Origin: Martelella mediterranea DSM 17316
Lineage (GTDB): Bacteria; Pseudomonadota; Alphaproteobacteria; Rhizobiales; Rhizobiaceae
Direction of reading: 5' to 3'
DNA length: 64,000 nucleotides
Assembly (NCBI RefSeq): GCF_002043005.1
Contig: NZ_CP020330.1
Location: 186,001 to 250,000 of the forward strand
Both the position numbers and the translations under genes were made by a program. The notes beneath the pieces were generated by a model. That model was given only the letters and a program-made list of their open reading frames with translations, ran no database searches and was not told the origin of the DNA. Shown in pieces: positions 29,914 to 48,143 of the stretch (its first letter is position 1; each line of letters opens with the position of its first letter).

Positions 29914-31401
29914 ATGACCTTTCAATTCAACGGATGGCGGAAATGCGTTTCCGCCGTTGCACTTGCCGCAGCGCTCGCCGTGCCCGGCGCGGCGTTTGCC
30001 GAAACGCTGACAATCGCGAGCCCGGGCGATGCCCAGCCCAAGAACATCCTGCCGATCCGCGCCGGCAATACGTCCTGGGTGCAAGCTGTATTCGAGCCTC
30101 TGGTGCGAATCATGCCGGGCGATGACACCCCGCAGCCGGTGCTCGCCAAGAGCTGGACCGTCTCCGAGGACGGCAAGACCGTGACCTTCGAACTTGAGGA
30201 CGGCGTCACCTTCCATTCGGGCCGTCCGTTCACGTCCGCCGACGTAAAATTCACGCTGGAAACGGCCGCCGACAAGGCCTCCGCGTCCCAGTTCTCCTTC
30301 ATCGCCAGCGCGATTTCCGAGATCGCGACGCCGAGCGACACCGAGGTCGTGCTGACGCTCGAAAGGCCGATGCCGAACCTGTTCGAGTTCCTGTCCCAGA
30401 CGGTCATCGTCGACAAGGATACTTACGACCAGCGTGCTGACGGCAAGGTGCTTGTCGGCACGGGACCCTACAAATTCGCCGACTGGGTGCCCGGCGCCTC
30501 CATCCGGATGGTGTCCTATGACGGTTATCGCGACCCCTCCGCCCATGCCTTCGACGAAATCGACATCGCCGTCATCACCGACCCGACCGCGATGATTTCG
30601 GCGCTCCGCTCGAACCGCGCCCAGCTCGCCATGCAGATGCAGCCGCGCGACGCGATCGAGCTTTCGGGCAATCCGATGTACCAGACCGTGCCCACCGCCG
30701 GCTCGATTTATCCGCTCGGCGTCAACGTCACCGACGCGCCGTTCGATGACAAGCGCGTGCGCCAGGCGGTCGGCTATGCGATCGACCGGGACCGTATCAA
30801 CCAGCAGATTTTCGACGGCCTCGGCACGCCGACAGACCTGTTCTGGCCGACCTCTGACGAACAGGCGCAGCACTATGCCTACAACCCGGACAAGGCCCGC
30901 GAACTGCTGAAGGAGGCCGGCGCCGAGGGCGCGACCGCCACCGTCGCCCTCCACGCCCTGCCCTCGCAGCGGGCGATCTTCGAGATCGTGCAGAACAACC
31001 TCACCGATGCCGGTTTCAAGGTCGAGGCCAATATCCTCGACCCGTCCACCTATGGCCAGCAGCAGATCGCCGGCGAACTCGGACCGGTGTTCATCCAGCT
31101 CCACGGCATGGATGGCCTCAGCCCGGCGACGCTGCTCAGCGCCGCACCGGCCTTGCGCGACGGCAATCCCTCTCACTTCTGGACCGACGAGTATCTGAAG
31201 CTGCGCGACGCCGTCCAGAGCGCTGCGAACAAGCAGGCCTCCGACGACGCGGTCAAGGCGCTCGGGGACTATCTCCTCGACCAGGCCTTCAACCTCAACA
31301 TCCTGTCGGCGCCGACGCTCTCGGTCTCGACCACCAATCTTGAGGGCGTCGAATACACCACGACCGGCTATATCGTGTTCAATCACGCTTCCGGCGGCTG
31401 A
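29914..31401 (+). CDS. Peptide/oligosaccharide-type ABC substrate-binding protein (family 5), paralogue 1
   Basis: A 495-residue periplasmic protein with a Sec signal peptide (CVSAVALAAALAVPGAAFAE). It has the SBP_bac_5 features LAKSWTVSEDGKTVTFELEDGVTFHSGRPFTSADVKFTLE and YKFADWVPGASIRMVSYDGYRD. Family 5 proteins carry peptides, nickel or oligosaccharides. It is clearly related to the protein at 36867 (shared DAQP+N, GTGPYKF and GTPTDLFW segments). There is no permease set directly after it, only sulfatases, so it probably shares the DppBC/ATPase proteins encoded at 38402-42329. AGGAGGAG lies before the ATG. Confidence 0.88.
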   Translation: MTFQFNGWRKCVSAVALAAALAVPGAAFAETLTIASPGDAQPKNILPIRAGNTSWVQAVFEPLVRIMPGDDTPQPVLAKSWTVSEDGKTVTFELEDGVTFHSGRPFTSADVKFTLETAADKASASQFSFIASAISEIATPSDTEVVLTLERPMPNLFEFLSQTVIVDKDTYDQRADGKVLVGTGPYKFADWVPGASIRMVSYDGYRDPSAHAFDEIDIAVITDPTAMISALRSNRAQLAMQMQPRDAIELSGNPMYQTVPTAGSIYPLGVNVTDAPFDDKRVRQAVGYAIDRDRINQQIFDGLGTPTDLFWPTSDEQAQHYAYNPDKARELLKEAGAEGATATVALHALPSQRAIFEIVQNNLTDAGFKVEANILDPSTYGQQQIAGELGPVFIQLHGMDGLSPATLLSAAPALRDGNPSHFWTDEYLKLRDAVQSAANKQASDDAVKALGDYLLDQAFNLNILSAPTLSVSTTNLEGVEYTTTGYIVFNHASGG

Positions 31402-31406
31402 CATTC

Positions 31407-31433
31407 GGCGGGCCGCACGACAGGCGGCCCGCC
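31407..31433 (+). terminator. Strong intercistronic stem-loop
   Basis: GGCGGGCCGC and GCGGCCCGCC form a perfect 10-bp stem with a 7-base loop, starting five bases after the binding-protein stop codon. No T-tract follows. Stem-loops at this place usually protect the upstream binding-protein mRNA and lower read-through into the next gene, here the first sulfatase. Confidence 0.65.
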
Positions 31434-31464
31434 CCCAATCCATCCATGACAAGAGCCTGCGACC

Positions 31465-33240
31465 GTGCGTACCATTGTCCTGATGTTCGACAGCCTCAAC
31501 CGGCTCTATCTTCCGGCCTATGGCGGAACCCGGTTCGATCTTCCCAATTTCAGACGGCTTGAAAGCCGGACCGTGACCTTCGACCGGTGCTATGCGGGCT
31601 CCATGCCCTGCATGCCCGCGCGCCGGGAGATGCACACGGGCCGCCCCAATTTCCTGCATCGCGGCTGGGGTCCGCTCGAGCCGTTCGATGACAGCAGCTA
31701 CGAGATTCTCGGCAAGCACGGCGTCTATACCCATCTCGTGACAGATCATGTCCACTACTGGGAGGATGGCGGCGCGACCTATCATCCGCGCTTCTCCTCC
31801 TACGAGTTCATTCGCGGACAGGAAGGCGATCCCTGGAAGGGGCATGTCGCCGATCCGGTGATCCCGCCCGCGCTCAACTGGCGCGGCGGCAAGGGCTGGC
31901 GGCAGGACTGGATCAACCGGGCCTATACCGCCACCCGCGAAAGCCATTTCCAGACGAAAACCCTTGATGCCGGACTGGAATTCATCGACACCAATGCCGC
32001 CGCCGATAACTGGCTGCTGCAGATCGAGTGTTTCGATCCGCACGAGCCCTTCTTCACGCCGGAGGAATATCACGGCCTGACGGGCGTGCGCGACGACATG
32101 CCCCATTACGACTGGCCGGATTATCGGCCGGTTCTGGAGGACGGGGAAACGGTCGATCAGGTCAAGGCGCGCTACGGTGCGCTCCTGAAGATGTGCGATG
32201 ACAGCCTCGGCCGGCTGCTCGACCGGATGGATGCGGGCGACATGTGGAAGGACACGATCCTGATCGTTTGCACCGACCACGGCCTGCTGATCGGCGAGCG
32301 CGACTGGTACGGCAAGAATGTCCAGCCATGGTATGAGGAAACCATCCATACGCCACTGTTCGTCTGGGACCCGGTCTCGGGCAACCAGGGGACCCGCGAC
32401 GGCAGCCTTGTCCAGACCGTCGATTTCGCTGCGACCTTTCTCGATGCGTTCGGGCTTGAACCGACGCCCGACATGCAATCGTGCTCAATCCTGCAGCACC
32501 TGCGCACCGGCGCACCGGTGCGCGAGACCGCGCTTTTCGGCATTTTCGGCGGTCATGTCAGCATCACCGACGGGCGCTACGTCTATATGCGCGCCTGCGC
32601 CACGCCGCAGAACCGGCCGCTCGAGGAATTCACCCTGATGCCGACGCGGATGAAGGCGCGGTTTTCGGCGGGCGAACTGAGAGACTTCCGGGTCGCCCCC
32701 CCCTTCGCCTTCACCAAGGGCGTGCAGACCATCGTCACGCGCGGCGGCGCCTTCGGCAATCCCTATCATTTCGGAACGCTGCTGTTCGACCTTGAAACCG
32801 ATCCGGACGAAACGACGCCGTTGAACGATCCCGCGCTCGAAACCCGAATGGCGACCATGCTGGTCGAGGCGATGCGGAAAAACGACGCGCCGGCCTCGCA
32901 GTATGAGCGCCTCGGCCTGCCGGAAACCGGCCCTGTCGAAGAACGGCATCTGCTGATCGAAAGGCAATGGCCGCAGATCGAGCGCAGCCGCCAGCGCAAC
33001 TGGAAGCAGGCGCCGGCGGATAGCTACGGCCCCGCCGCCCGTCTCACCATTGCCGAAGTCTTTGCCGATCCGGCCCTGAAGGCGCTCGTCGACGAGGCGT
33101 TCGGCTTCGCCCTCGGCCCGGCGATGGTCGAGCGCTTCGGCCGCAACAGCCTCTGGGCGCTCGCGGTCATGTCGCCCGGCGTCACGCCCGGGGATCTGCA
33201 CGCCCTCGACGACCGGCTCGTCCGGCATCAGCCCGCATAG
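31465..33240 (+). CDS. Cys-type sulfatase, paralogue 1
   Basis: A 591-residue sulfatase that would hydrolyse a sulfate ester after conversion of Cys49 to formylglycine: the motif is C49-M-P-A-R in GSMPCMPARREMHTG, the C-x-P-x-R form. An N-terminal metal Asp lies in MFDSLNR and the second metal pair in VCTDHG (about residue 270). There is no signal peptide, so it acts in the cytoplasm unless exported in an unusual way. The start is a GTG at 31465 without a strong ribosome binding site. It is closely related along its whole length to the sulfatase at 42983. No formylglycine-generating enzyme is encoded in the window. Confidence 0.9.
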   Translation: MRTIVLMFDSLNRLYLPAYGGTRFDLPNFRRLESRTVTFDRCYAGSMPCMPARREMHTGRPNFLHRGWGPLEPFDDSSYEILGKHGVYTHLVTDHVHYWEDGGATYHPRFSSYEFIRGQEGDPWKGHVADPVIPPALNWRGGKGWRQDWINRAYTATRESHFQTKTLDAGLEFIDTNAAADNWLLQIECFDPHEPFFTPEEYHGLTGVRDDMPHYDWPDYRPVLEDGETVDQVKARYGALLKMCDDSLGRLLDRMDAGDMWKDTILIVCTDHGLLIGERDWYGKNVQPWYEETIHTPLFVWDPVSGNQGTRDGSLVQTVDFAATFLDAFGLEPTPDMQSCSILQHLRTGAPVRETALFGIFGGHVSITDGRYVYMRACATPQNRPLEEFTLMPTRMKARFSAGELRDFRVAPPFAFTKGVQTIVTRGGAFGNPYHFGTLLFDLETDPDETTPLNDPALETRMATMLVEAMRKNDAPASQYERLGLPETGPVEERHLLIERQWPQIERSRQRNWKQAPADSYGPAARLTIAEVFADPALKALVDEAFGFALGPAMVERFGRNSLWALAVMSPGVTPGDLHALDDRLVRHQPA

Positions 33241-33251: not shown

Positions 33252-34682
33252 ATGCAACCGAATATTCTTCTGGTTTTCCCGGATCAACTGCGCTCCGACT
33301 GGGTGGAGCCACGGGCGACGGTTCCTGTCAGGACGCCGAACGCGAAGGCGCTCGCCGAAAGCGGCGTCAACTTCGAGCATGCCTGGACGCCATCGCCGAT
33401 CTGCGCGCCGGCACGCGCCTGCATCGCCACCGGCCGCCGTTACGATCGCAGCCCGGTGCAGCATAACAACCAGAATGTGCCGGCGGGCGCCGACACGATC
33501 TACCGGCGCATGGCCGACAAGGGTTATGCGGTTTCCACGGTCGGCAAGCTCGACCTGTTGAAGGGTTTCATGGACTGGGGTGCCGACGGCAAGCACATGA
33601 CGGAGGCCGGCGAAAGCCGCCTCGCCGATCTCGGCTTTACCCGCGGCATCGACAATGCCGGCAAGCATGACGCGATCTATGGCCGCGAGCGCGGCGCCCG
33701 CGAGCCCTACATGACCTATCTCGCCGAGATCGGGCTTGCCGACGTTCATGACGCCGATTTCCGCCGCCGCGACCGCGCCAATATTCCGGCGACCGTCAAC
33801 GAGATCGCCGCAGGCGACCTTCCGTTGCCCGACGCCTATACCAATCCCGATCTCTCGCCACTTCCGGACGAGGCCTATTGCGACAACTGGATCGGCCGCC
33901 AGGCGATGAACGAACTCGAGGGCCTGAAGGACACCGGCAAGCCGTGGTTCCTTACCGTCAACTTCGCCGGCCCCCACGAACCGCTCGACGTGACGGAGCG
34001 CATGCGCGACCGCTGGAAGGACGTGGCCTTCCGGGAACCGGCCGACGGCTCCCCCGATCCGCGACACCAGATGATCCGGCAGAACTATGCCGCGATGATC
34101 GAGGTCATCGATGACTGGCTCGGGCGCTTCCTCGCCTTTCTCGACGAGACCGGACAGCGCGACAACACGCTGGTGGTGTTTGCCTCCGACCACGGCGAAA
34201 TGCTCGGCGACCACAGGCTCTGGGCGAAGTCGATCCCCGACGAGAATTCCGTGCGCGTGCCGATGATCGTTGCTGGCGCGGGTGTTTCGGTCAGGGACCG
34301 CTCCGTCCGGACGCCGGTGTCCCTTCTCGACATGGCGAAGACCTTCCTCGATTTCTCCGGCGCGCCCGGCGAAGGCATGGAAGGCGACAGCCTGCGCGGC
34401 CTGCTCGAGGGCGAGGCCGAACCCGAGACGCGGCTCGTATTTTCCGGCCTCGGCCCGTGGCGGGCGGTGACCGATGGCCGCTTCAAGCTCGTCGCCGGCG
34501 ACTGGCGCGCGATCCGGCCGGGCAAGATGCAGTTCACCGAATTCGATCCCGCCGGCCTCGATACGGTCGCGCTGTTCGATCTCGATGAGGATCCGGAGGA
34601 GCGCCGTGACATCGCCGCCGCGCATCCCGAGATCCGCGACCGTCTGCTGGAAGCGATCCGGGACGATATGGCGCGCCGCTAA
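33252..34682 (+). CDS. Cys-type sulfatase, distinct subfamily
   Basis: A 476-residue sulfatase with the formylglycine motif C51-A-P-A-R in SPICAPARACIATG, metal residues in VFPDQLRSDW and FASDHGEMLGDH, and a typical C-terminal RLVFSGLGPWRAVTDGRFKLVAG region. It opens directly with MQPNILLVFPDQ, so it has no signal peptide and should be cytoplasmic. It is only distantly related to the sulfatases at 31465 and 42983 and probably removes a sulfate at another position or sugar. It follows the first sulfatase gene by 11 bases. Confidence 0.9.
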   Translation: MQPNILLVFPDQLRSDWVEPRATVPVRTPNAKALAESGVNFEHAWTPSPICAPARACIATGRRYDRSPVQHNNQNVPAGADTIYRRMADKGYAVSTVGKLDLLKGFMDWGADGKHMTEAGESRLADLGFTRGIDNAGKHDAIYGRERGAREPYMTYLAEIGLADVHDADFRRRDRANIPATVNEIAAGDLPLPDAYTNPDLSPLPDEAYCDNWIGRQAMNELEGLKDTGKPWFLTVNFAGPHEPLDVTERMRDRWKDVAFREPADGSPDPRHQMIRQNYAAMIEVIDDWLGRFLAFLDETGQRDNTLVVFASDHGEMLGDHRLWAKSIPDENSVRVPMIVAGAGVSVRDRSVRTPVSLLDMAKTFLDFSGAPGEGMEGDSLRGLLEGEAEPETRLVFSGLGPWRAVTDGRFKLVAGDWRAIRPGKMQFTEFDPAGLDTVALFDLDEDPEERRDIAAAHPEIRDRLLEAIRDDMARR

Positions 34683-34772: not shown

Positions 34773-36458
34773 TCAGAACCGGGCCTGCTCCTGCCCGCAG
34801 AAGGGATCGACCGGGCTTTTGCCGGTGAACGGCTTTTCGCCGGTCATACAATCGAGCACCGCCTCCTGCATCTCGTCGGAGGTCGCATAGGCATTGATGA
34901 CGGCGGGCATGCGCGGTGCGTCGTAGAGGTAATAGGGATAGCCGAAGGAGACGAGCGCGGTCGCCGCCTCGTGCCACGGCCGCTTCATCGCCATCCGGAA
35001 ATCGCCCATCAGCCGGGCCCAGTCGAGGAAGATGTGGCTGCGCGTCAGCAGCGTCTCCTCGGCCAGGAGATAGAGCGCGAGGTCGTATTCCGCGGGCTGC
35101 CACGGATCGCCGTGGGCGAAGACCGTCACCTCGAAACCGCGTGCGCGCATCATCTCCGGCAGGGCAAGCGGCATCGGGGCGCCGTGGATCGGCGAGACGA
35201 TGCCACCGGAGATGACAAGCACCCGGCGGTGGGTTTCCGGTGACAGCGGAAACAGGTTCCGCACATCCTTCACCAGCGTCGGTGCGCGGGCAAACGCCTC
35301 TGCGGCGGTCGCCTTCGCCTCCGGCGTCGCCAGCCGGGCAAGGGGTTCGGCTGCCGCCTCACGGCAATGAAGTCCGAGCGCGGCTTTCATTCCCAGAACC
35401 CGCGTCAGGGCTTCGGCGAGGCGCGCCTCCGGCAGGCTGCCATCCTCCAGCGCGGCGCGGACAAGGGCGATATCGCCCGGCAGGTCGCCGGTGAACAACA
35501 CCATGTCACACCCGGCGCGGAGCATTTCGACCTTGGCCGGGCCGGCCGCCATATAGGACGTCGCGCCCACCATCTCTGAGGCATCCGAGACGATCAGGCC
35601 GTTGAACCCCAGCCGGTTGCGAAGCAGTTCCTGATTGAGAAGCCGCGAAAGCGACGCCGGCCGATAGAGTTCCTCCGGCCCGGCCTCGGGATCCAGCATG
35701 CGCACGAAGGCTGGCAGCGCGATATGGGCGGACATCACCGACAGCACATTGTTTTCGATCCCGGCCCGATAAAGCCTGCCGAAGGTTTCCTCCCACGCAT
35801 CCATCGACAGCGGATTGACGGTGGTCACCAGATGCTGGTCGCGGTCGTCATAGCCCTCGCCCGGCCAGTGTTTCAGGCAGGCGGCAATGCCATGGCGCTG
35901 CAGCGTCTCGATCTGGACCATCGCGTGACGTTCGATCAGCGCCGGATCGGAACCAAACCCTCGGGTCGCCACGATCGCCGAGCGGAACGCGGCATTGATG
36001 TCGATAACCGGCGTGAACGACCAGTTGGTGCCGACCGCCCGCGCCTCCTCGGCCATCAGCGTGTAGATGTCGCGGGTGAGCGCCGTGTCATCGGCCGCCG
36101 CCAGCGCCAGCGGGTTCGGAACCTGAGTTCCGAAGGGAAAGGACATGCGCGAGCCTTCGAGATCCGCCGAGACCAGCAGCGGAACCTTCGACCGTTGCTG
36201 CAGGGTTTGCAGGAGCGTCACCTCGGCGGCCCCATCCTGCGAGAAGAAGCGCGTGACCCCGCCCGGCCGCAGCCTTTCGATTTCCGCCGCCCATGGCCCG
36301 GCCGGCCCGTGCAGGCCGATGACGAAAAGCTGCGCGATCATGCTTTCGACGTCGCCCGCGAGTGCCGCCGCGGACTGCGCCACCCAGGCGATATCCTCCT
36401 CCGAGAGGTTGAAGGGTTGCTCCCTCAGAAGATTGAGCGGCAGATCGTCCGGTGTCAT
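34773..36458 (-). CDS. GH3 family glycoside hydrolase (NagZ-like beta-N-acetylhexosaminidase)
   Basis: A 561-residue protein. Its TIM-barrel part has DLEGSRMSFPFGTQVPNPLALAA and KHWPGEGYDDRDQH, which corresponds to the NagZ loop KHFPGHG..D.H and keeps the Asp-x-His dyad used as acid/base, while the second His of the loop is Glu. The nucleophile is expected in GLIVSDASEMVG. A C-terminal alpha/beta domain of about 200 residues follows, as in Bacillus-type NagZ. No signal peptide is present, so it is cytoplasmic. The start at 36458 follows GGAGGAAC. It converges on the sulfatase gene and presumably cleaves a hexosamine-containing substrate of the same locus. Confidence 0.87.
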   Translation of the reverse strand: MTPDDLPLNLLREQPFNLSEEDIAWVAQSAAALAGDVESMIAQLFVIGLHGPAGPWAAEIERLRPGGVTRFFSQDGAAEVTLLQTLQQRSKVPLLVSADLEGSRMSFPFGTQVPNPLALAAADDTALTRDIYTLMAEEARAVGTNWSFTPVIDINAAFRSAIVATRGFGSDPALIERHAMVQIETLQRHGIAACLKHWPGEGYDDRDQHLVTTVNPLSMDAWEETFGRLYRAGIENNVLSVMSAHIALPAFVRMLDPEAGPEELYRPASLSRLLNQELLRNRLGFNGLIVSDASEMVGATSYMAAGPAKVEMLRAGCDMVLFTGDLPGDIALVRAALEDGSLPEARLAEALTRVLGMKAALGLHCREAAAEPLARLATPEAKATAAEAFARAPTLVKDVRNLFPLSPETHRRVLVISGGIVSPIHGAPMPLALPEMMRARGFEVTVFAHGDPWQPAEYDLALYLLAEETLLTRSHIFLDWARLMGDFRMAMKRPWHEAATALVSFGYPYYLYDAPRMPAVINAYATSDEMQEAVLDCMTGEKPFTGKSPVDPFCGQEQARF

Positions 36459-36785
36459 GCATGTTCCTCCCCGCAAGACGCTTCAATGTGTTTCTGGATA
36501 GCCCTCGTGGGCAATGGTCGACAATGTTTTTGTTGGGACCGGCCATAAACGACAGTTATGCCCGCCACGGTTCGAAAGCCGCAGGCAGGCCGGTTTCGCG
36601 CACCTGAAGCGTCGCCGTTTTGCTGGCCGCTTCAAGGTCTCAAGCGCCTGCGGCTCAACGTCCGGAGTTTGATCGAAGCCTCGCTTTCTGCCGAGCGCGA
36701 AACCATTGTCGGCCGCAGACGACGGCACGACGCCCTGGCTCCATGCCCTGCACCGAGGCCACCGCCCCGCCCGGTGGAGCGTCAA
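36459..36785. other. Intergenic region between divergent GH3 and transporter operons
   Basis: About 330 bases without a convincing gene. Open frames exist on both strands but are Arg/Pro/Cys-rich and show no family pattern. A weak minus-strand promoter for the GH3 gene may be TTGTCG followed 17 bases later by CTATCC, near 36500-36528. The plus-strand transporter promoter and operator begin at about 36788. Confidence 0.4.
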
Positions 36786-36787: not shown

Positions 36788-36820
36788 TTGACTTGTGTTA
36801 AACCTAGCAAGTGCTAGGTT
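36788..36820 (+). promoter_or_regulatory. Transporter-operon promoter with 20-bp TetR-type operator
   Basis: A -35-like TTGACT (36788-36793) is followed by AACCTAGCAAGTGCTAGGTT at 36801-36820, a palindrome with perfect 8-bp arms (AACCTAGC/GCTAGGTT) around a 4-bp centre. The palindrome covers the spacer and -10 positions, so a bound protein would block transcription. A version with 16 of 20 matching bases lies at 47429-47448. The TetR gene at the end of this operon is the natural candidate to bind it. Confidence 0.7.
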
Positions 36821-36866
36821 GTTTTAAGAGGGCGTCAGGGGAGTGACGCCACGAAGGAGGATTTCC

Positions 36867-38396
36867 ATGCCCAACCCGAAACTGTTTTCGGTCACCCGTC
36901 GTCGTCTGCTGACCGGTTCCGCGCAGGCCGCAGTGATGATCGGCGCCATGCATTATGTCCCGGCTCTTGCCCAGGACACGTCGCGCGCGGTCATTGCCCA
37001 GGCCTATGACGCCCAGCCGCGCAACCTGCTCGCCTTTCGCGGCGGCAATTTTCCCTGGATCAAGAATGTCTTCGAGACGCTGACCTATACCGATCCCGAA
37101 ACGTTCGAACCGCAGCCCGAGCTTGCCACCGACTGGACGCTGTCTGATGACGGCATGACACTGACGCTCAACCTGCGCGACGACGTCACCTTCCACACCG
37201 GCCGCAAGATGACCGCGGCGGATGTGAAATACAGTCTCGAGACCGCAGCGCTTCCCGAAACCGCTTCGCAGATCGGCTTCATCGCCCGCAGCTTCAAGGC
37301 GATCGACACGCCCAGCGATACGCAGGTGGTGATCACCTTCTCGCAGCCGACATCGAATGTCTGGGACCTGTTCGAGGAAACCCCGATCATCGACAAGGAA
37401 ACCTATGCCGAGCGCGAGGACGGTTCGAAGGTGATCGGCACCGGCCCGTACAAATTCGTGAGCTGGACGCCGGGCGCCGAGCTGCAGCTCAGCCGGTATG
37501 ACGGCTATCGCGACAAGGATGCCGCGAAAATCCACGATCTCGACTACGCCATCATCGCCGATCCGACGGCGACGATCGCCGCCGTCCGCTCGGGCCGTGC
37601 CCAGATCGGCTACGGCATGACCCCGCGGGACGTCATCGAGTTCGACCGCAACCCGATGTACACGATCGTCAGCACCGCCGGCACGATCTATCCGTTCGGC
37701 GTCAATGTGGAAGAAGGTCCGTTCGACCAGAAGACCGTCCGTCAGGCCGTCGGCTATGCCATCGACCGCCAGCGCATCATCGACCAGGTCTTCGACGGCG
37801 CCGGCACCCCGACGGACCTTTTCTGGTCCCCCTCCTCCCCCGGCTATACCGAGGAGCAGGCGAACCGCTATTCCTACGATCCCGAAAAGGCCAGCAAGAT
37901 GCTGGAGGACGCGGGCGCCAAGGGTGCCAAGGTCACGATCGTCATTCCCGCCATTCCGGCGAACCGCTCGATCTTCGAGATCGTGCAGAACAATCTGCGC
38001 GAAGTCGGGCTCGAGCCGGAGGCCAGGGTTCTCGACGTCGCCGAATACGACCAGCGGCAGGTGGCCGGCGACCTCGGCCAGTCCTTCATCCTGATCCATG
38101 GCCAGGTCGGCTTCCAGACCGCGACGCTTCTCTCCTCGCTGCCGTCACTGCGCAAGGGCAACCCGTCGCATTTCTGGAGCGACGAATACGAGACGCTCCG
38201 CAACGCGGTCTCGGCCGCCTCGACGGCTGACGACCAGGCCAAGGCCGTCACGGCGCTGTCGGAATATATGCTGGACGAGGCCTTCACGCTGGCGCTCCTC
38301 CAGGCGCCGTCCCCCAGCGTCGTTTCCGCCGATCTCGAAGGTGTCTCGTTCTCGCGGCGGGGCTACATCCTGTTCAAGAACGCCACCTACAGGTAA
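36867..38396 (+). CDS. Peptide/oligosaccharide-type ABC substrate-binding protein (family 5), paralogue 2
   Basis: A 509-residue periplasmic protein. The N-terminus contains VTRRRLLTGSAQAAVMIGAMHYVPALAQ, a probable twin-arginine signal, unlike the Sec-type signal of paralogue 1. Family 5 features include LATDWTLSDDGMTLTLNLRDDVTFHTG and YKFVSWTPGAELQLSRYDGYRD. The ATG at 36867 follows AAGGAGG; the longer reading begins inside the leader. It is the first gene of a five-gene operon that encodes both permeases, a fused ATPase and a TetR regulator. Its likely ligand is the sulfated glycoside degraded by the neighbouring enzymes. Confidence 0.9.
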   Translation: MPNPKLFSVTRRRLLTGSAQAAVMIGAMHYVPALAQDTSRAVIAQAYDAQPRNLLAFRGGNFPWIKNVFETLTYTDPETFEPQPELATDWTLSDDGMTLTLNLRDDVTFHTGRKMTAADVKYSLETAALPETASQIGFIARSFKAIDTPSDTQVVITFSQPTSNVWDLFEETPIIDKETYAEREDGSKVIGTGPYKFVSWTPGAELQLSRYDGYRDKDAAKIHDLDYAIIADPTATIAAVRSGRAQIGYGMTPRDVIEFDRNPMYTIVSTAGTIYPFGVNVEEGPFDQKTVRQAVGYAIDRQRIIDQVFDGAGTPTDLFWSPSSPGYTEEQANRYSYDPEKASKMLEDAGAKGAKVTIVIPAIPANRSIFEIVQNNLREVGLEPEARVLDVAEYDQRQVAGDLGQSFILIHGQVGFQTATLLSSLPSLRKGNPSHFWSDEYETLRNAVSAASTADDQAKAVTALSEYMLDEAFTLALLQAPSPSVVSADLEGVSFSRRGYILFKNATYR

Positions 38397-39349: not shown

Positions 39350-39353
39350 AACC

Positions 39354-40244: not shown

Positions 40245-42329
40245 ATGACCGCCATTGCAACCGATCCGCTGCTCCGGGTCGATAACCTCACCACCGCCTT
40301 CGGCAACCGCGATGCCGGCATCACCGCCGTGCGCAACGTCTCCTTCGAGGTCGGCCGCGGCCGCGTGCTCGGCATCGTCGGCGAAAGCGGCTCCGGCAAG
40401 TCGGTCACAGCGCGGTCCATCCTGCGGCTCTTGCGCAAGCCGGGCCATGTCCGCGAAGGCTCGGTGAAGCTCGCCGGCCGCGAACTGCTGACGCTTCCCG
40501 AAGAGGAAATGCGCAAGATCCGCGGCAAGGACATCGCCATGGTGTTCCAGGATCCCCAGTCCGCGCTCAACCCGGTGATGCGGGTCGGCGACCAGATCGT
40601 CGAGGCACTGGAAGTCCATGGCGTCAAGGGTCCGGCCGCCCGCGAGCGGGCCAGGGAACTGCTGCGCCAGGTCGGCATTCCCGACGTCGAGCGCAACATT
40701 GACAACTATCCGCACGAATTCTCCGGCGGCATGCGCCAGCGCGTGGTGATCTCGATCGCGCTCGCCAACCATCCGAGCCTGCTTCTCGCCGACGAGCCGA
40801 CAACGGCGCTCGACGTCACGATCCAGGCACAGATCCTCCGGCTGCTCGTCAAACTTCGCGACGAGCTCGGCGTCTCCATCGTCATGATCACCCACGACAT
40901 GGGCGTCGTCGCCGAACTCTGCGACGATCTCGTGGTGATGTATGGCGGCCGGGTGGTCGAAACCGGGCTCGTCAGCGATGTGCTGACGGCGCCACGCCAC
41001 CCCTATACCGCGGCGCTGCTGCGCTCCGTGCCGCGCCTTGACGCCGACGACGCCCACGAGCTGCCGGCGATTCCCGGCCAGCCGCCGATCCCGGCCTTCC
41101 TGCCGTCCGGCTGCGCCTTCCATCCGCGCTGCGCGCATGCAATCGAAGCCTGTCGGGAGAAGGTTCCGCCACTTGCGCAATTGCAGCCCGGCCACCGTTC
41201 AGCCTGTCACGTGGCGCAGGCGGGTAAAACCGACCTCGCCCCACCGCCGTCCGCAGCCCTCCCCGCGCGGGCGGCGGTGCCCGACAACGCGAAACCCTTC
41301 CTGAAGGTCACAAACCTGAAAACCGATGTCGCCGCCGGTTCCGGCGGCATGTTCCGCAAGCATACCCCGGTCTATGCCGTCGACGGCATCTCCTTCGATG
41401 TCTATCTCGGCCAGACCTTCGGTCTCGTAGGGGAATCGGGCTGCGGCAAGTCGAGCCTGTCGCGCTCGCTGGTCGGCATCAACCATCCGACCTCCGGCAC
41501 GATCGAACTTGACGGCCGTGACGTCACCGCGATGACGACCGAGGACCGGCACTTCATCAACCGCCGCGTCCAGTATGTCTATCAGGACCCCTCGGCCTCG
41601 CTCAATCCGCGACGCACGATCGCGCAATCGCTGGAAGAGGCGCTCGCCGTGGTCGGGCTCACGGGCCGGGCGGCGCGGGCGCGGGCCGCCGACCTGATGA
41701 ACACGGTCGGGCTGGCGCCGCATTTCCTCAGCCGCTATCCGTTCGAGATCTCGGGCGGCCAGCGCCAGCGCGTCGGCATCGCCCGCGCGCTCGCCGTCGA
41801 GCCGAAGCTCCTGATCTGCGACGAGCCGGTCTCCGCCCTCGATGTCTCGATCCAGGCCCAGATCATCAACCTTCTCGACGATCTCAAGACCGAACTGGGG
41901 CTCGGTTACCTGTTCATCGCCCATGACCTGGCGGTGGTGAAGCATATCTCGGACATGGTCGCGGTGATGTATCTCGGCCGGCTGGTGGAAACCGGCACCA
42001 CAGACGATGTCTACAACCGTCCCCGCCACCCCTATACCCAGGCGCTGCTTTCGGCGACGCCCGAGGCCGACGTGACCCGCCGGGACCGCGAACGCATCTA
42101 CCTTGGCGGCGAACTGCCCTCCCCCGCCAACCCGCCCTCCGGCTGTCGTTTCCGCACCCGCTGTCCGATCGGACCGCTCCATCGTCCCGATCGACAAATC
42201 TGCAAGGACAGCGATCCCGCGCTTGCCGAACGGGACGGGCGCTCGAAGGTCGCCTGCCATTTTGCCGCCGAGCGCGATGCACTGCTCCTCTCCGAGGCCC
42301 AAAATCCGGAAGGTGCACAGCAACGATGA
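40245..42329 (+). CDS. Fused ABC ATPase with two nucleotide-binding domains (DppD-DppF type)
   Basis: A 694-residue protein with two complete ATPases in one chain. The first (about residues 8-335) has Walker A GESGSGKS, signature [12 protein letters not shown] and Walker [14 protein letters not shown]. The second (about 345-690) has [24 protein letters not shown] and [13 protein letters not shown]. Each ends in an oligopeptide/dipeptide C-terminal domain with clustered cysteines ([15 protein letters not shown] and [11 protein letters not shown]), which can hold an iron-sulfur cluster in this family. It powers the DppBC-like channel. Its stop overlaps the TetR start by four bases. Confidence 0.92.
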
Positions 42330-42946
42330 AGGCAAAAGCAGAACCACGCCGCCGGCGCAGTCCAAAGGGCGAGAGCCGGCGCCAGGAAATCCTCGATGCC
42401 GCCACCAAGCTGTTCTCCCATGGCGGCTTCCACACCGCGAGCCTCGCCGATATCGCCGATGCCGTGGGACTGACGCAGGCCGGCCTGCTGCACTATTTTC
42501 CGTCCAAGGCGGAACTGCTGCTTGCGGTGCTGCGCCAGCGCGAGGAGCGCGTTCTGGTGGACGAGACCGCCGATGCCGCCAACAAGGGCATCGCCTATGC
42601 CGAGGCCTTCGTCGAGACCTTGCGGCGGAACGAGAAGAACCCGGTGATGGTGCAACTCTTCGCGATCCTGTCACACGAGGCGATCTTCACAGACCATCCG
42701 GCCCATCCCTGGTTCCGCGAACGATACGCAGCCGTCGTCATCAAGGCGACCGACCAGCTTGCGGCGACGATCGACGAAACGAAGCTGCCGCCCGGCACGA
42801 CGGTGGAAAGCATCGCCCGGCTGATGATCGCCGCCGCCGACGGGCTGAGACTGCAATGGCTGCTCGATCCGAAAGCGCTCGAACGCCCGAAGGTGATGAA
42901 CGAGTTCTTCGCTCTCCTCGCCCCCTATATCAAGAAACCGGACTGA
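42326..42946 (+). CDS. TetR-family transcriptional regulator (paralogue 1)
   Basis: A 206-residue regulator. After a basic N-terminus, the helix-turn-helix domain covers about residues 17-65 (RRQEILDAATKLFSHGGFHTASLADIADAVGLTQAGLLHYFPSKAELLLAVL). The C-terminal ligand-binding domain follows. It is translationally coupled to the transporter ATPase gene (ATGA overlap) and so is made together with the importer. Its relative at 47502 has a very similar recognition helix (VGLT..GLLHYFPSK), in agreement with the two near-identical operators at 36801 and 47429. Confidence 0.9.
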   Translation: MKAKAEPRRRRSPKGESRRQEILDAATKLFSHGGFHTASLADIADAVGLTQAGLLHYFPSKAELLLAVLRQREERVLVDETADAANKGIAYAEAFVETLRRNEKNPVMVQLFAILSHEAIFTDHPAHPWFRERYAAVVIKATDQLAATIDETKLPPGTTVESIARLMIAAADGLRLQWLLDPKALERPKVMNEFFALLAPYIKKPD

Positions 42947-42982: not shown

Positions 42983-44761
42983 ATGCGCGCCGTCATGGTG
43001 ATGTTCGATAGCCTCAACCGCCTGTTCCTGCCGGCCTATGGCGCCACGGATGTGGACCTTCCGAATTTCCGCCGGCTGTCAGAGCGCAGCGTGACATTCG
43101 ACCGTTGCTATGCCGGCTCCATGCCCTGCATGCCGGCGCGGCGCGAGATGCATACCGGGCGCTACAATTTCCTGCATCGCGGCTGGGGACCGATCGAGCC
43201 CTTCGACGACAGCGTGCCGGAGATGCTGAGAGGGGCAGGCGTCTACACCCATCTTGTCACCGACCATCAGCATTACTGGGAGGACGGCGGCGCGACCTAT
43301 CACAATCGCTACTCCACCTACGAATTCTTCCGCGGCCAGGAGGGCGATGCCTGGAAGGGCGAGGTCGCGGATCCCGTGATCCCGGAAACCGTGACCTGGC
43401 GCAAGGGCCGGCTCTGGCGGCAGGACTGGATCAACCGCAAATACCTGAAGACCGCCGCCGATTATCCGCAAACGCAGACCTTCGACGCTGGCCTCGGCTT
43501 CATGCGAACCAATGCCGATGACGACAACTGGTTCCTGCAGATCGAATGCTTCGATCCGCACGAGCCGTTTTTCACCGACGAGGCCCACAAGGCCCGCACC
43601 GGCGCGCAAGAGGCCGGGCTGCATTACGACTGGCCGGACTATCGGCCCGTTCTGGAGGACGCGGAAACGCTCGCCCGCCTGCGCAAATCCTATGCGGCGC
43701 TGCTGACCATGTGCGACGACAATCTCGGCCGGGTGATGGACCTCATGGACGCGCAGGACATGTGGAAGGACACGATGCTGATCGTGTGCACTGACCACGG
43801 TTTCCTGCTCGGCGAACACGGCTGGTTCGGCAAGAACATCCAGCCCTGGTTCGAGGAAAACATCCACACCCCGCTGTTCCTCTGGGATCCGCGCACCGGG
43901 GCGGCGGGGACGCGCTCGGATGCCCTCGTGCAAACGATCGATTTCGGCCCGACATTGCTCGAATATTTCGGCGTCGACCGCACGCCCGACATGCAGGGGC
44001 GGCCGATCGCGCCGGTTCTTTCCGGCAGCGAAAAACCGAGGCAGCACGCGCTGTTCGGCGTCTTCGGCGGGCATGTCAACATCACCGATGGCCGCTATGT
44101 CTATATGCGCGGGCCGGCGACCCCATCCAACGGCCCGCTTCACGAATACACGCTGATGCCGACGCGCATGGACCATCGCTTTGCCGTCCCGGACCTGCAG
44201 GAGGCGACCCTCTCCCCGCCCTTCAGCTTTTCGAAGGGCGTTCCGCTGCTGAAGGTCCGGGGCATGGCGATGGGCAACCCCTATGCCTTCGGCAGCCTGC
44301 TCTACGATCTTGAGACCGATCCCGAACAGCGCAATCCGTTGATCGATGACGAGCGCGAGCTCCTGATGGCGCAACGGCTTGTGGAGGCGATGCGCGAGGC
44401 CGAAGCGCCGCCCGAACAATATGAACGCCTCGGCCTGCCCGAGACCGGCGATGTCGGCCCCGAACACCTGCTTGTCCGCAAACAGAGAGAACTCTCGCTG
44501 GAAACCCTTGAACAGGACTGGACATCCGCGCCGGAAACGGAGTTTTCGCCGGCGCTCAGGCAACCGATGGAGACGCTCGACAAGGTCCTTCTGGAACAGG
44601 CCGCCGCAGCCCTTGGCCTCCCCGCCTACGGGCCGTTTATCGAACGCTTCGGTTACCTCTCCCTCTGGCAGATCTCGGTCATGCTGCCGAGCGTCTCGCC
44701 GGAACGGTTAAGGGCGTTTGAACGGACACACGGCCGAGGCGTGATGCAACCGGCAAAATGA
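42983..44761 (+). CDS. Cys-type sulfatase, paralogue 2
   Basis: A 592-residue sulfatase with the formylglycine motif C49-M-P-A-R in the segment GSMPCMPARREMHTGR. It has long, nearly identical blocks with the sulfatase at 31465 (MFDSLNR, NFLHRGWGP, FDPHEPFF, PHYDWPDYRPVLED-like and VCTDHG). The metal-site Asp is in MFDS and the later pair in CTDHGFLLGEHGWFG. No signal peptide is present. It lies 36 bases after the TetR gene with AGGAGA before the ATG, so it ends the transporter operon. It probably has a substrate related but not identical to that of paralogue 1. Confidence 0.9.
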   Translation: MRAVMVMFDSLNRLFLPAYGATDVDLPNFRRLSERSVTFDRCYAGSMPCMPARREMHTGRYNFLHRGWGPIEPFDDSVPEMLRGAGVYTHLVTDHQHYWEDGGATYHNRYSTYEFFRGQEGDAWKGEVADPVIPETVTWRKGRLWRQDWINRKYLKTAADYPQTQTFDAGLGFMRTNADDDNWFLQIECFDPHEPFFTDEAHKARTGAQEAGLHYDWPDYRPVLEDAETLARLRKSYAALLTMCDDNLGRVMDLMDAQDMWKDTMLIVCTDHGFLLGEHGWFGKNIQPWFEENIHTPLFLWDPRTGAAGTRSDALVQTIDFGPTLLEYFGVDRTPDMQGRPIAPVLSGSEKPRQHALFGVFGGHVNITDGRYVYMRGPATPSNGPLHEYTLMPTRMDHRFAVPDLQEATLSPPFSFSKGVPLLKVRGMAMGNPYAFGSLLYDLETDPEQRNPLIDDERELLMAQRLVEAMREAEAPPEQYERLGLPETGDVGPEHLLVRKQRELSLETLEQDWTSAPETEFSPALRQPMETLDKVLLEQAAAALGLPAYGPFIERFGYLSLWQISVMLPSVSPERLRAFERTHGRGVMQPAK

Positions 44762-44787: not shown

Positions 44788-44827
44788 CATCATCCGCCGC
44801 GCACTGTCCGGCGCGCGGCGGATGATG
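44788..44827. terminator. Bidirectional terminator between convergent genes
   Basis: CATCATCCGCCGCGC and GCGCGGCGGATGATG form a perfect 15-bp stem with a 10-base loop, lying 26 bases after the sulfatase stop and 12 bases beyond the GH3 stop on the opposite strand. A short T-run (GGTTTTC) follows on the plus strand. It should end transcription from both sides. Confidence 0.75.
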
Positions 44828-44839
44828 GTTTTCAGGTCA

Positions 44840-47335
44840 TCAGGCCGGTTCTGACCATTCGGTCTCAAGATCGACGGCCAGACGCTGGCGGATATCGCCG
44901 GCATTGGCGGCCACGAGAAGCGCGTAGCGGCCGGCAGGCGCCATCCATCTCTGGCGTTCCACATCGAAATAGGCGAGATCGCGCGGCACGATGCCGAGGC
45001 TGGCCGTTCCGCTCTGTCCTGGCTTCAGGGCCAGACGCGCGAAGGCGCGCAGTTCCTTTTCCGGGCGGGCGACAGGAACGTCTTTAGCCATGGCTTCCGG
45101 ATGGACGTAAAGCTGCACGACCTCGACGCCATCCGCCGCGCCCGAATTGACGATCGGTACGGTGACGGTGACACCGGCATCGGTCATAATCTCGGTGTCT
45201 GCGACGGCCTCGCCCCAGGTAAACTGCGTGTAGCCGAGGCCGAAACCGAAGGGAAAGAGTGGCGGTACATTGTGACTGTCGTGATGGCGATAGCCGACGA
45301 AAACGCCCTCATCGTAGCGCACATGCCCGTCCTTGCCGGGATAGGTGAGCGCGTCTTCGCTCCAGGCCGAATTGTCCTTCATGCGGCGTGGGAAGGTCTG
45401 CGGCAGCCGTCCGCCGGGAGATGCCGCGCCGCTCAGCACATCGGCAATCGCATTGCCGACCTCCTGTCCCGGGTACCAGAACTGGACGACCGATTTCACC
45501 TTGTCGAGCCAGGGCATTTCCACCGGCCCGCCGGTCTGCAGAACCACGACCGTGTTCGGATTGACGGCGGCAACGGCCTCGATCAGTGCATTCTGCCTGC
45601 CGGGCAGGGTCATGTCCGGCAGATCATACCCCTCGCTGTCCCATTCCTCCTGGCGGCCGACGAACAGCACCGCCACATCCTGCTCCGCCGCAAGCCTGAC
45701 GGCATCATCGATTTCCGGCTGCCCCATCGTCTTTTCAATCCCGAACCTGAGCGCGCGGACGGTGATGCCGTTATCGGCGGTTGCCGGGGAACAATAGTCG
45801 ATGACCAGCTGATAGGTGGTCCCGGCCTGAAGTTCGATATCCGCCAGCCTCTCATCATTGGCCGTGCCGAAAAAGTTCTGTCCGTGCGCCCAGTCGCTCT
45901 CGCCGTCGATCAGCAGTTCGCCATCAAGATAGGCGCGCGCAAGGCCGGCATTGGTCATTCCGGCGCGGTAGGTCCCGCTCTCCTCCGGAGTGAAGGTGGC
46001 GACGGCCCGCACGGAAAAATCGTTCTGGTCCAGTTCCGGTGCGGGCAAGTCGAACCAGAAGCAGTTGAGCGCCTCCTCGGTTGCGATGTGAGCGGGCTTG
46101 CCTTCAAGCCGGCGGCCGTGATGGAACCGAAGCTCGATATCGCCCTGCAGGACCTGCGTCAGCCTGTTGTTGGTGCAGCCCTTGGCATGGGAAACGCGAT
46201 TGTCACCGAAGGCGGCCTTCAGTCCCTCCACCGGCGTCACCCGGTAGGGCGCGTTGATCTGCGCCGATCCGCCGCCCATCAACCGCGCCACGCCGGCATT
46301 GGGTCCGAGGGCCGCGATCGATACGGTGTTTTCCAGCGGCAGCAGGTCGCCTTCATTCTTCAGAAGAACGGCGCCTTCCGCACCGAGGCGACGGATCAGC
46401 GCACGGGTCTCCGGCGCATCACGCGACGTTTCCGCCTCGGGACCTGCGCTGTCGAAGGCGCCGACACGCTCGAACAGGACGAGCAGGCGCCGCGTTGCGG
46501 CACGGATCGTCTCGGGATCAACCTCCCCGGCCTTCACCGCGTCAAGAAGCCTGGTGCCGCGATAGCGTGCCGGCCCCGGCATTTCGAGGTCGTGCCCGGC
46601 ATTGACCGAGCTCGCGACCGAATTCGTGCCGAACCAGTCCGACATGAAGATGCCGTCATAGCCGAACTCACCCCGCATCACGTCCTGCAGCGCCCATTTG
46701 TGGCTGTCCATATGGATGCCGTTGAGCCGGTTATAACCGGTCATCACCGCCCAGACGCCCGCCTTCTTGACCGCGGCCTCGAACGGCGGCAGGTAGATTT
46801 CGCGCAGCGTCCTCTCGTCGACATCGGAGGACACCGTCTGCCGGTCGATTTCGGAATCATTGGCGACGAAATGCTTGATCGTCGCCCCGACTCCATTGTC
46901 CTGCAGGCCCTTGATATAGGCGACGGCCAACATGGATGTCAGCAGCGGGTCTTCCGAATAGCATTCGAAATTGCGCCCGTTGAGGCCCGAGCGGTGTATG
47001 TTGACCGTCGGTGCCAGCAGCACGCGCGCCCCCTTCGAACGCGCCTCGGCGGCGAGCGTCGCCCCCATTTCATAAGCCGCGTCGCTGTTCCAGCTCGCGC
47101 CAAGCGCGATGGCGCAGGGGAAGGCAGCGGCCGGCGTGCCGTTGGTCAGCCCGCCCGCGCCGCGTGCGCCATTGGGGCCATCGGAGACCTTCACGGCCGG
47201 GATGGCGAGGCGCGGGATCGGAACGGTGGTCCAGAAATCCGCGCCCGCCATCAGCGAGACCTGCTCCTCCAGGGTCAATTCGTCCAGAAGTTGCTCGATA
47301 TTGACGGCAGCGCCGCGCGTCTGCTCGCTGTTCAT
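44840..47335 (-). CDS. GH3 family beta-glycosidase with PA14 domain
   Basis: An 831-residue beta-glucosidase-type GH3 enzyme: barrel domain (residues 10-300) with KVSDGPNGARG, the NGRNFECYSEDP and KHFVANDSEIDR segments, and the nucleophile Asp in GIFMSDWFGT; an alpha/beta sandwich with LLKNEGDLLPL; a PA14-like insertion at about 390-550 (FWFDLPAPELDQNDF, GTYRAGMTNAG, YLDGELLIDG); and a C-terminal fibronectin III-like domain. PA14 insertions shape the substrate site in this group. No signal peptide is seen, so it is cytoplasmic. The start at 47335 follows GGGAGG. A -10-like TATGAT (47421-47426) and the operator at 47429 lie just upstream. Confidence 0.9.
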   Translation of the reverse strand: MNSEQTRGAAVNIEQLLDELTLEEQVSLMAGADFWTTVPIPRLAIPAVKVSDGPNGARGAGGLTNGTPAAAFPCAIALGASWNSDAAYEMGATLAAEARSKGARVLLAPTVNIHRSGLNGRNFECYSEDPLLTSMLAVAYIKGLQDNGVGATIKHFVANDSEIDRQTVSSDVDERTLREIYLPPFEAAVKKAGVWAVMTGYNRLNGIHMDSHKWALQDVMRGEFGYDGIFMSDWFGTNSVASSVNAGHDLEMPGPARYRGTRLLDAVKAGEVDPETIRAATRRLLVLFERVGAFDSAGPEAETSRDAPETRALIRRLGAEGAVLLKNEGDLLPLENTVSIAALGPNAGVARLMGGGSAQINAPYRVTPVEGLKAAFGDNRVSHAKGCTNNRLTQVLQGDIELRFHHGRRLEGKPAHIATEEALNCFWFDLPAPELDQNDFSVRAVATFTPEESGTYRAGMTNAGLARAYLDGELLIDGESDWAHGQNFFGTANDERLADIELQAGTTYQLVIDYCSPATADNGITVRALRFGIEKTMGQPEIDDAVRLAAEQDVAVLFVGRQEEWDSEGYDLPDMTLPGRQNALIEAVAAVNPNTVVVLQTGGPVEMPWLDKVKSVVQFWYPGQEVGNAIADVLSGAASPGGRLPQTFPRRMKDNSAWSEDALTYPGKDGHVRYDEGVFVGYRHHDSHNVPPLFPFGFGLGYTQFTWGEAVADTEIMTDAGVTVTVPIVNSGAADGVEVVQLYVHPEAMAKDVPVARPEKELRAFARLALKPGQSGTASLGIVPRDLAYFDVERQRWMAPAGRYALLVAANAGDIRQRLAVDLETEWSEPA

Positions 47336-47420
47336 ACTCGCCTCCCTTGATATCCGGCATGCTCGTTCCTGACCGACAACCACCCGGTCGGCGTGGCGTC
47401 GATCACTGTCGCGACACGAA

Positions 47421-47448
47421 ATCATAAAAATCTACCAATTACTAGGTT
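47421..47448 (-). promoter_or_regulatory. GH3/TetR divergent control region with second copy of the 20-bp operator
   Basis: On the minus strand AACCTAGTAATTGGTAGATT (47448-47429) matches the transporter-operon palindrome at 36801 in 16 of 20 bases, with arms AACCTA and TAGRTT kept. It sits directly upstream of TATGAT (47426-47421), a good -10 for the GH3 gene, so it overlaps the -35 position. On the plus side it is 53 bases upstream of the TetR gene at 47502. Both genes could be controlled by either TetR protein. Confidence 0.65.
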
Positions 47449-47501
47449 TTTAAATCGGGCGCATTTCGTGTAATCTGAGAGCCGAATGGAGACGCCATCG
47501 C

Positions 47502-48143
47502 ATGCCGAGGAAAAACCTGACGCAACCCGCCCCTCAAAAGCCAGAGAGCCGTGCGCGCGGCCCATATGGAAAGGGCCGGCAGCGGCGTGCGGAAATCGTG
47601 AAAGCGGCAGTTCGGGTGTTCAGCCAATCGGGCTATCAGAATGCGGCCATTGCCACCGTCGCCGCGGAGGTGGGGCTGACGCTTCCCGGCCTGCTGCACT
47701 ATTTCCCGAGCAAGACCGATTTGCTGCTGGCTGTCCTGGAACAGCGCGATGAAGTCACCGCCGACATGCTGCCGAAGGAGAGCGCCGACTGGCGCACATT
47801 CCTCGGTTCGCTGGTGGACATCGTCCGGTATAACGAGACGATCCCGGGCGTGATCCGCGCCTTCGCGCTTCTGTCGGTGGAAAGCCTATCGGCCGACCAT
47901 CCAGCGGCGGACTGGTTCGCGGACCGATCGGCAAAGACGCACGCCATGATCGCCAGAGCGCTCAGATCCGGACAGGCCGAGGGGACATTCGACCCGGCCG
48001 CCGATGCGGGCGCCCTCGCCTTCGAAATCATCGCCATGATGGACGGCCTGCAGGAGCAATGGCTGCGCTCGGGCGAAACCATCGACATGGCCGGCATCTT
48101 CGAAACCTACATCAACCGGCTTGCTGCGCGATACAGCCGCTGA
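47502..48143 (+). CDS. TetR-family transcriptional regulator (paralogue 2)
   Basis: A 213-residue regulator with a basic N-terminus of about 28 residues, a helix-turn-helix domain (RRAEIVKAAVRVFSQSGYQNAAIATVAAEVGLTLPGLLHYFPSKTDLLLAVL) and a C-terminal ligand-binding domain. It is divergent from the GH3 gene at 47335, with the shared-type operator between them. Its similarity to the TetR protein at 42326, including the LLHYFPSK segment, indicates a duplication. It is probably a repressor that responds to a sugar derived from the glycan. Confidence 0.88.
   Translation: MPRKNLTQPAPQKPESRARGPYGKGRQRRAEIVKAAVRVFSQSGYQNAAIATVAAEVGLTLPGLLHYFPSKTDLLLAVLEQRDEVTADMLPKESADWRTFLGSLVDIVRYNETIPGVIRAFALLSVESLSADHPAADWFADRSAKTHAMIARALRSGQAEGTFDPAADAGALAFEIIAMMDGLQEQWLRSGETIDMAGIFETYINRLAARYSR

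Follow-up and report, generated by a model that had tools for sequence, protein, structure and literature searches.

In the cited part of a review (PMC10154612), the carbohydrate sulfatases described belong to Bacteroidetes of the gut and of soil and are located in the periplasm or at the cell surface, and the polysaccharide utilization loci (PULs) of Bacteroidota combine S1 sulfatases (S1_11, S1_46, S1_9) and glycosidases with SusCD uptake. Import before desulfation has also been proposed: for Streptobacillus moniliformis Smon0120-0127, the cited portion of PMC5430744 describes an ATP-binding cassette (ABC) importer that takes up sulfated glycosaminoglycan (GAG) disaccharides whole, and a sulfatase predicted to be cytoplasmic. 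Here we describe 12 clustered genes of Martelella mediterranea DSM 17316, located in a 64,000-nucleotide stretch of contig NZ_CP020330.1 (positions 186,001 to 250,000; hereafter the window), that probably constitute a linked, coherent pathway for importing a small sulfated glycoside and dismantling it inside the cell. An earlier note, made from the sequence of this stretch alone, had contrasted the cluster with Bacteroidota systems; this contrast holds for the periplasmic or surface sulfatases and SusCD uptake found there, but Streptobacillus provides a precedent outside that phylum.

Like the PULs, the cluster joins S1 sulfatases with glycosidases. The unsaturated uronyl disaccharides of Streptobacillus are split by a GH88 enzyme, whereas the window carries a family-5 solute-binding protein (SBP5) and Opp importer, a predicted glycoside hydrolase family 3 (GH3) phosphorylase and a PA14-containing GH3. 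Judged against the cited part of the Streptobacillus report, what appears to be new is the combination of an Opp importer, a leaderless sulfatase clade and a GH3 phosphorylase. A literature search of titles and abstract openings, with most subscription papers outside its coverage, found no Opp-sulfatase-phosphorylase route.

With moderate confidence, we propose an import-first catabolic route made up of an SBP5 and Opp importer, cytoplasmic formylglycine (FGly) sulfatases, GH3 cleavage and TetR control. From the gene content, the lack of recognisable leaders, the conserved linkage and two similar operator-like sequences, we infer its reactions, substrate, order of steps and repressor action as follows. 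In the periplasm, one of the SBP5 paralogues, g5 or else g1, would capture a small O-sulfated beta-glycoside, whose sugar is most likely gluco-configured (of the glucose or glucosamine type), and g6-g8, the Opp/Dpp-type ABC importer, would take it in whole. Once in the cytoplasm, it would lose its sulfate ester(s) to the FGly sulfatases g2, g3 and g10, for which the one formylglycine-generating enzyme (FGE) detected in the genome would act as maturase. The freed glycosidic bond would then be split by the g4 phosphorylase, with release of a sugar 1-phosphate, by the PA14-GH3 g11, or by both. The TetR proteins g9 and g12 would repress from a common 20-bp operator, and the substrate would relieve repression. 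The view of the earlier note that the glycoside is imported intact and taken apart in the cell is thereby retained, given the leaderless enzymes, the linked Opp, sulfatase and GH3 genes of relatives and the common operator-like site, albeit with three corrections.

Composition of the cluster

Pfam profile searches recovered all 12 genes at their expected positions between 29914 and 48143, and hence the full inventory of three Cys-type sulfatases, two GH3 enzymes, two SBP5 proteins, a Dpp-like importer and two TetR regulators listed in the earlier note. The features are as follows, in window coordinates.

29914..31401, + strand: g1, family-5 solute-binding protein with a Sec-like leader (PF00496, 266 bits; 52% identity to g5)
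31465..33240, + strand: g2, leaderless S1-type sulfatase, long form, CMPAR (PF00884, 102 bits; 61% identity to g10)
33252..34682, + strand: g3, second type of leaderless sulfatase, CAPAR (PF00884, 137 bits)
34773..36476, − strand: g4, GH3 of the BglX/BglP beta-glucoside phosphorylase type, start codon uncertain (5vqd, 294 bits)
36801..36820, no strand: operator-like palindrome AACCTAGCAAGTGCTAGGTT before the Opp operon (perfect 9-bp inverted repeat)
36843..38396, + strand: g5, family-5 solute-binding protein with a twin-arginine-like leader (PF00496, 265 bits)
38402..39349, + strand: g6, Opp/Dpp-type permease B (PF00528, 119 bits; PF19300, 64 bits)
39321..40241, + strand: g7, Opp/Dpp-type permease C, start codon uncertain (PF00528, 93 bits)
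40245..42329, + strand: g8, fused OppD-OppF ATPase (ABC_tran twice, oligo_HPY twice)
42326..42946, + strand: g9, TetR regulator within the operon (PF00440, 60 bits; 38% identity to g12)
42983..44761, + strand: g10, leaderless S1-type sulfatase, long form, CMPAR (PF00884, 122 bits; clade analysis)
44840..47425, − strand: g11, GH3-PA14-Fn3 beta-glycosidase (Pfam; 3abz, 551 bits)
47429..47448, listed without strand: second operator-like site, AACCTAGTAATTGGTAGATT on the − strand (match to site 1)
47502..48143, + strand: g12, second TetR regulator (PF00440, 46 bits)

The domains found were SBP_bac_5 (two), Sulfatase (three), GH3, GH3-PA14-Fn3, BPD_transp_1 (two), a fused ABC_tran/oligo_HPY protein and TetR_N (two). 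Two groups of genes on the + strand are tightly spaced and look like operons: g1-g3, with an SBP followed by two sulfatases, and g5-g10, which runs from an SBP through two permeases, the fused ATPase and a TetR to a sulfatase. Both GH3 genes lie on the − strand. An SBP5, two BPD_transp_1 permeases and two fused oligo_HPY ATPases together make up a complete Opp/Dpp-type importer. The solved chain closest to g1 is AgaA (6hlx, 136 bits), and the g7 family (F22) is common to five loci of our comparison set, in which loci carry L numbers (L031, L040, L052, L054 and L062). Recent acquisition of the cluster was considered and rejected, as its GC content (0.63-0.66) resembles that of the rest of the window (0.60-0.67).

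Leaderless sulfatases

Export leaders were called by eye, by hydropathy (highest 15-residue value within the first 50 residues) and from the position at which the sulfatase domain starts. By eye and hydropathy, only the two SBPs among the 12 gene products carry leaders: that of g1 spans about 29 residues and ends in AFA, and that of g5 spans about 43 residues and has an RRR motif (VTRRRLLTG ahead of a hydrophobic stretch). Peak hydropathy is 2.08 and 1.53 for g1 and g5, and 1.01, 0.35 and 1.14 for the three sulfatases, whose catalytic domain begins at residue 3-4. Neither GH3 shows a leader by eye and hydropathy, with peaks of 1.23 for g4 (at residue 29, beyond the start of its 5vqd match) and 0.04 for g11, although hydropathy alone parts g5 from g4 by a narrow margin only. 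The true start of g11 may be Met31 (47335), because its alignment to 3abz (beta-glucosidase I; residues 42-848) starts only at residue 42. The earlier statement that sulfatases and GH3 enzymes lack visible signal peptides is borne out by these observations, and exported sulfatases, which the note had named as contrary evidence, were not found among the three.

All three sulfatases contain the CxPxR motif. The 5.69-Mb, four-contig genome yields 20 PF00884 matches, so sulfatases as such are common in it, and the maturation enzyme that the earlier note suggested seeking elsewhere in the genome was detected once, as an FGE at C1:2164227-2165051. Subfamily assignment is less straightforward. Profile scores for g2 and g10 run from 122 to 103 bits across SpAS1/2, 5g2v, phosphonate monoester hydrolases, 9s03, choline sulfatase and 7p24; the best match of g2 among solved chains reaches only 76 bits, and no single S1 subfamily stands out in profile and fold comparison (the AlphaFold2 model of g10 has a pLDDT of 85.5). 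The best solved chain for g3 is 7oz8 (BT1918_S1_46, 125 bits), with the next four chains at 110-115 bits and SpAS1 and choline sulfatases close behind. Choline sulfatase identity (S1_12) was rejected for g2, g3 and g10, which score 75, 159 and 98 bits against a TIGR03417 cut-off of 433. BetC of Sinorhizobium is likewise an FGly sulfatase; its substrate is a small sulfate ester, which is imported. However, the window sulfatases fall far below the choline-sulfatase cut-off, and the BetC system lacks glycosidases.

Both g2 and g10 belong to a clade represented in our set by 74 open reading frames (ORFs) from 69 loci, after exclusion of ORFs whose g10 match starts beyond residue 6 and with one member (L059) being a 116-residue piece. 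All 74 are leaderless when trimmed to the residue aligned with M1, a trim verified by scanning 45-210 bases upstream for hydrophobic extensions. The clade extends over Pseudomonadota, Actinomycetota, Bacillota and Chloroflexota, and has an invariant D-H-x-H roughly at the position of G-K-x-H in other sulfatases. A recognisable importer lies within 8 kb of 51 of the 74 ORFs, as labelled by similarity to 64 reference proteins with ATPase-only matches rejected as Opp (accepting them gives 53). We tentatively suggest, while leaning somewhat towards doubt, that this clade is obligately cytoplasmic and desulfates small glycosides that are imported whole by interchangeable transporters (Opp, CUT1, phosphotransferase systems (PTS), tripartite tricarboxylate transporters (TTT) and the major facilitator superfamily (MFS)), and that its Opp branch in Rhizobiaceae and Mediterraneibacter is coupled to phosphorolysis. 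If so, uptake of a sulfated beta-glycoside would yield a phosphorylated sugar without the ATP cost of a kinase. For soil, plant-associated and gut bacteria, such a clade, widespread, leaderless and tied to importers as well as (in one branch) to a phosphorylase, would represent a second strategy for using sulfated carbon, one directed at small molecules.

Several observations weigh against the import-first route. The importer count stands without a random-locus control, and 23 of the 74 ORFs have no recognisable importer. Thirteen of these 23 are from Chloroflexota, where the neighbours tested encode enzymes such as galactarate dehydratase, thiolase and CoA transferase. The clade is also about equally close to sulfatases and to phosphonate monoester hydrolases.

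Other features of clade loci were recorded in passing. The Martelella genome holds four further clade members (45-48% identity to g10) at three other loci (L063, L064 and L065), and therefore several related substrates are likely. Thermophilibacter L049 carries a row of three ORFs (8376-13303), two clade sulfatases plus a further sulfatase-like one, with a large GH3 upstream (4460-6934), and on a very large replicon E. coli CP088669 carries a PTS IIC-IIB-clade sulfatase set between rlmC and art genes (L081, 7303-10482). TauE/SafE genes occur near clade sulfatases in E. faecium and Serratia (L101, 12302-13081; L102, 10322-10642), as do CLC channel genes in Martelella and relatives (L067, L073 and L074), and a CLC gene adjoins the FGE gene in the Martelella genome (L001, 2338-3813). 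Either type of gene might serve to let out sulfate freed in the cytoplasm.

A phosphorylase-type GH3 and its linkage to sulfatases

The earlier note called g4 NagZ-like, and this description must be replaced. Its match to 5vqd (BglX) covers residues 16-566 of 567 and the next solved chain scores 123 bits, whereas its score to the NagZ model (NCBIfam PRK05337) is 127 bits, below the cut-off of 207; a NagZ role is rejected on the combination of this low score and the full-length BglX/BglP homology. In place of a Glu acid-base residue, g4 has a His/Asp dyad, KHWPGEGYDDRDQH, and all 20 related ORFs with more than 250 bits to g4 share the pattern KH[WF]PG[ED]G.D.RDQH with 5vqd. According to the cited part of PMC8950772, GH3 phosphorylases use such a dyad, and the 5VQD enzyme is listed with beta-glucose 1-phosphate (beta-Glc1P) and beta-N-acetylglucosamine 1-phosphate (beta-GlcNAc1P). 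That enzyme is of metagenomic-library origin and acts on cello-oligosaccharides, and the same part of the paper makes no link to sulfatases. On homology, g4 is classed as a phosphorylase-type GH3 that is predicted to carry out phosphorolysis.

For conservation, we surveyed 297 Rhizobiaceae genomes for the clade sulfatase (E <= 1e-80) and the phosphorylase (E <= 1e-60), scoring at most four candidates per genome, such that all counts are lower bounds. At least 28 genomes carry the sulfatase, at least 13 the phosphorylase and at least 4 both. The two genes are neighbours in all four genomes that have both, at distances of 59 bp to 6.7 kb. Multiplying the chances of such closeness in the three genomes other than Martelella's own gives about 8e-9 (for random placement, ignoring shared descent and using lower-bound copy numbers), and the linkage is more than chance. 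The genes named in the earlier note thus do co-occur and are linked in related genomes. A chance neighbourhood of unrelated catabolic genes, which might be imagined in a genome rich in sulfatases (20) and transporters (21 TctA genes), is disfavoured and seems very improbable, since different genera and one Bacillota genome share the linkage, and since the window contains an operator-like pair.

Plain co-occurrence is weak (4 genomes versus 1.2 expected, P 0.025; 3 versus 1.1, P 0.085, when Martelella's own genome is left out). Nine of the 13 phosphorylase-bearing genomes lack a detected clade sulfatase, and therefore the phosphorylase is not tied to the chemistry of sulfates; it likewise occurs without a clade sulfatase in stretches from Thioclava, R. 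lusitanum, A. tumefaciens and E. innesii. Among five Rhizobiaceae CUT1 loci with a close clade member (at least 53%), only L061 has a GH3 (not L077, L084, L085 or L090). The closest g4 orthologues (78% in L091, 83% in L067) do have clade sulfatases as neighbours, together with a sugar importer of the CUT1 type.

Of the Rhizobiaceae loci read, eleven combine Opp genes with a clade sulfatase (the window, L062, L076, L082, L086-L089 and L126-L128; three are N. galegae and two Martelella). The phosphorylase is present in eight and the PA14-GH3 in five, with both in two and neither in none, although the five Neorhizobium loci and L088 (6 of the 11) were chosen knowing that both genes were present, the PA14-GH3 gene in L088 is truncated where the stretch ends, and L089 is a 7.4-kb contig with OppF as its sole importer gene. 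L090 was left out, as CUT1 genes lie beside its sulfatase and its weak Opp-like matches are farther away. All four loci chosen by sulfatase alone (L062, L086, L087 and L089) contain a GH3. The occurrence of two different GH3 types in one and the same context suggests a common target bond.

The Neorhizobium loci carry further indications of function. A single stretch of Neorhizobium petrolearium (L076) encodes an anaerobic sulfatase maturase (anSME), FGE, phosphorylase, sulfatase, SBP, LysR, permease, permease-ATPase, ATPase, clade sulfatase and a further sulfatase. Four other records (L082 and L126-L128) have a near-identical gene set in another order: S1_11-like sulfatase, LysR, SBP, OppB, OppC-ATPase, OppF, clade sulfatase, phosphorylase and FGE. 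The LysR regulator would suit a role in sulfur scavenging, in which organic sulfate esters are imported generally for sulfate assimilation and the GH3 enzymes merely tidy the sugar part; in Pseudomonas, the ats genes combine cytoplasmic arylsulfatases with ABC import of sulfate esters. We regard this explanation as unlikely, given the two GH3 and two TetR genes in the window, the presence of as many as three sulfatases per locus, and the TauE/SafE exporter gene some kb away in the E. faecium and Serratia loci, which resembles disposal.

The extra N. petrolearium sulfatases are S1_11-like (413 bits over the full length of the N-acetylglucosamine (GlcNAc)-6-sulfatase 5g2v) and S1_8-like (228 bits), and an S1_11-like sulfatase also occurs in L082, L087, L091, L126 and L128, and L127 has one split into two pieces. 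Their position beside the clade sulfatase argues against a reading in which the FGly enzymes hydrolyse phosphodiesters or phosphonate monoesters and an agrocinopine-type sugar phosphodiester is the compound taken up. Neighbouring FGE or anSME genes do not separate the two chemistries, and the clade is similarly close to both enzyme groups, but overall we judge the phosphodiester alternative improbable. The same S1_11-like and S1_8-like enzymes, and the nearness of g3 to BT1918 S1_46, which the cited part of PMC10154612 describes as a 3-O-sulfatase of 3S,6S-GlcNAc, would fit a GAG or mucin fragment as substrate, such as a sulfated GlcNAc disaccharide as in Streptobacillus. However, neither the GH88 unsaturated glucuronyl hydrolase and lyases of a Streptobacillus-type GAG locus nor any uronate gene is present among the 12 genes, several hosts are soil or plant bacteria, and a Mediterraneibacter locus described below points to glucose, and thus a fragment of this type is also a poor prospect.

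This locus (L052) contains, in one block, SBP, OppB, C, D and F, a ROK protein, the phosphorylase, a beta-phosphoglucomutase (TIGR01990, 253.9 bits; cut-off 189.4) and a clade sulfatase. A beta-phosphoglucomutase is the enzyme expected to follow a retaining beta-glucoside phosphorylase, and its presence is, albeit indirectly, the strongest single sign of phosphorolysis and of glucose in the Mediterraneibacter version. On the opposing side, 9 of 10 genomes checked, including that of Martelella, have no beta-phosphoglucomutase above the cut-off, and of five non-Rhizobiaceae loci with Opp genes and a clade sulfatase, only L052 has either GH3 within 8 kb (the others being two Cohnella and two Streptomyces loci, L031, L032, L040 and L054). 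An apparent phosphorylase-sulfatase linkage in Cohnella thailandensis was not counted, as about 29 kb of the same contig separate the relative (33-36%) from the operon.

For the import-first route, the S1_11-like and S1_8-like neighbours, the nearness, by no decisive margin, of g3 to BT1918 and the Mediterraneibacter mutase together favour a small-molecule substrate with a gluco-configured sugar, perhaps an amino sugar. The hexosamine suggested in the earlier note has only indirect support, from the S1_11-like sulfatase of orthologous loci, while the mutase points to glucose. Glucosinolates were considered, as beta-glucoside PTS and beta-phosphoglucomutase neighbours suit a sulfated glucoside, although the sequences are not decisive. 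Sulfated Nod factors were considered as well, but none of the results bears on them. The cluster offers a short list of genes, in culturable organisms, for finding the substrate.

Operator-like sites and neighbouring genes

The palindrome at 36801-36820 lies 22 bp ahead of the g5 start. When both strands of the window were searched with this palindrome as the only query, at up to 6 mismatches, the sole other match was the site at 47429-47448 (4 mismatches), between g11 and g12. Among 1000 palindromes made from shuffled half-sites, 19 match anywhere in the window with up to 4 mismatches and 1 matches in the g11-g12 gap. A pattern built from the two sites finds only these two places in the genome with up to 3 mismatches, but such rarity alone proves little because a reversed control pattern also gives three matches. 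The exact core pattern is found in none of 130 loci beyond the two holding these sites, and a promoter scan found no sigma-70-like promoter around site 1. The simplest reading is that the TetR paralogues jointly control the Opp-sulfatase operon and the PA14-GH3 gene from this putative operator.

Adjoining the cluster at 48418..52336 on the − strand are TTT genes (TctA, TctC and what lies between; PF01970, 521 bits; PF03401, 178 bits), whose membership in the pathway is uncertain. Of the 21 TctA genes in the Martelella genome, 5 have one of the 20 sulfatases within 5 kb (random placement mean 0.74, P 0.0005), a distance picked afterwards; at 2 kb the count is 2 versus 0.41 (P 0.065). In Lachnospiraceae L048, TctC, a small ORF and TctA directly precede a clade sulfatase. 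TTT systems may import small sulfated acids.

Long ORFs also lie opposite genes of the cluster at 45101-47350 (+), 35724-36548 (+) and 29812-32478 (−). The first two have no Pfam match, and all three look like shadow frames of high-GC DNA.

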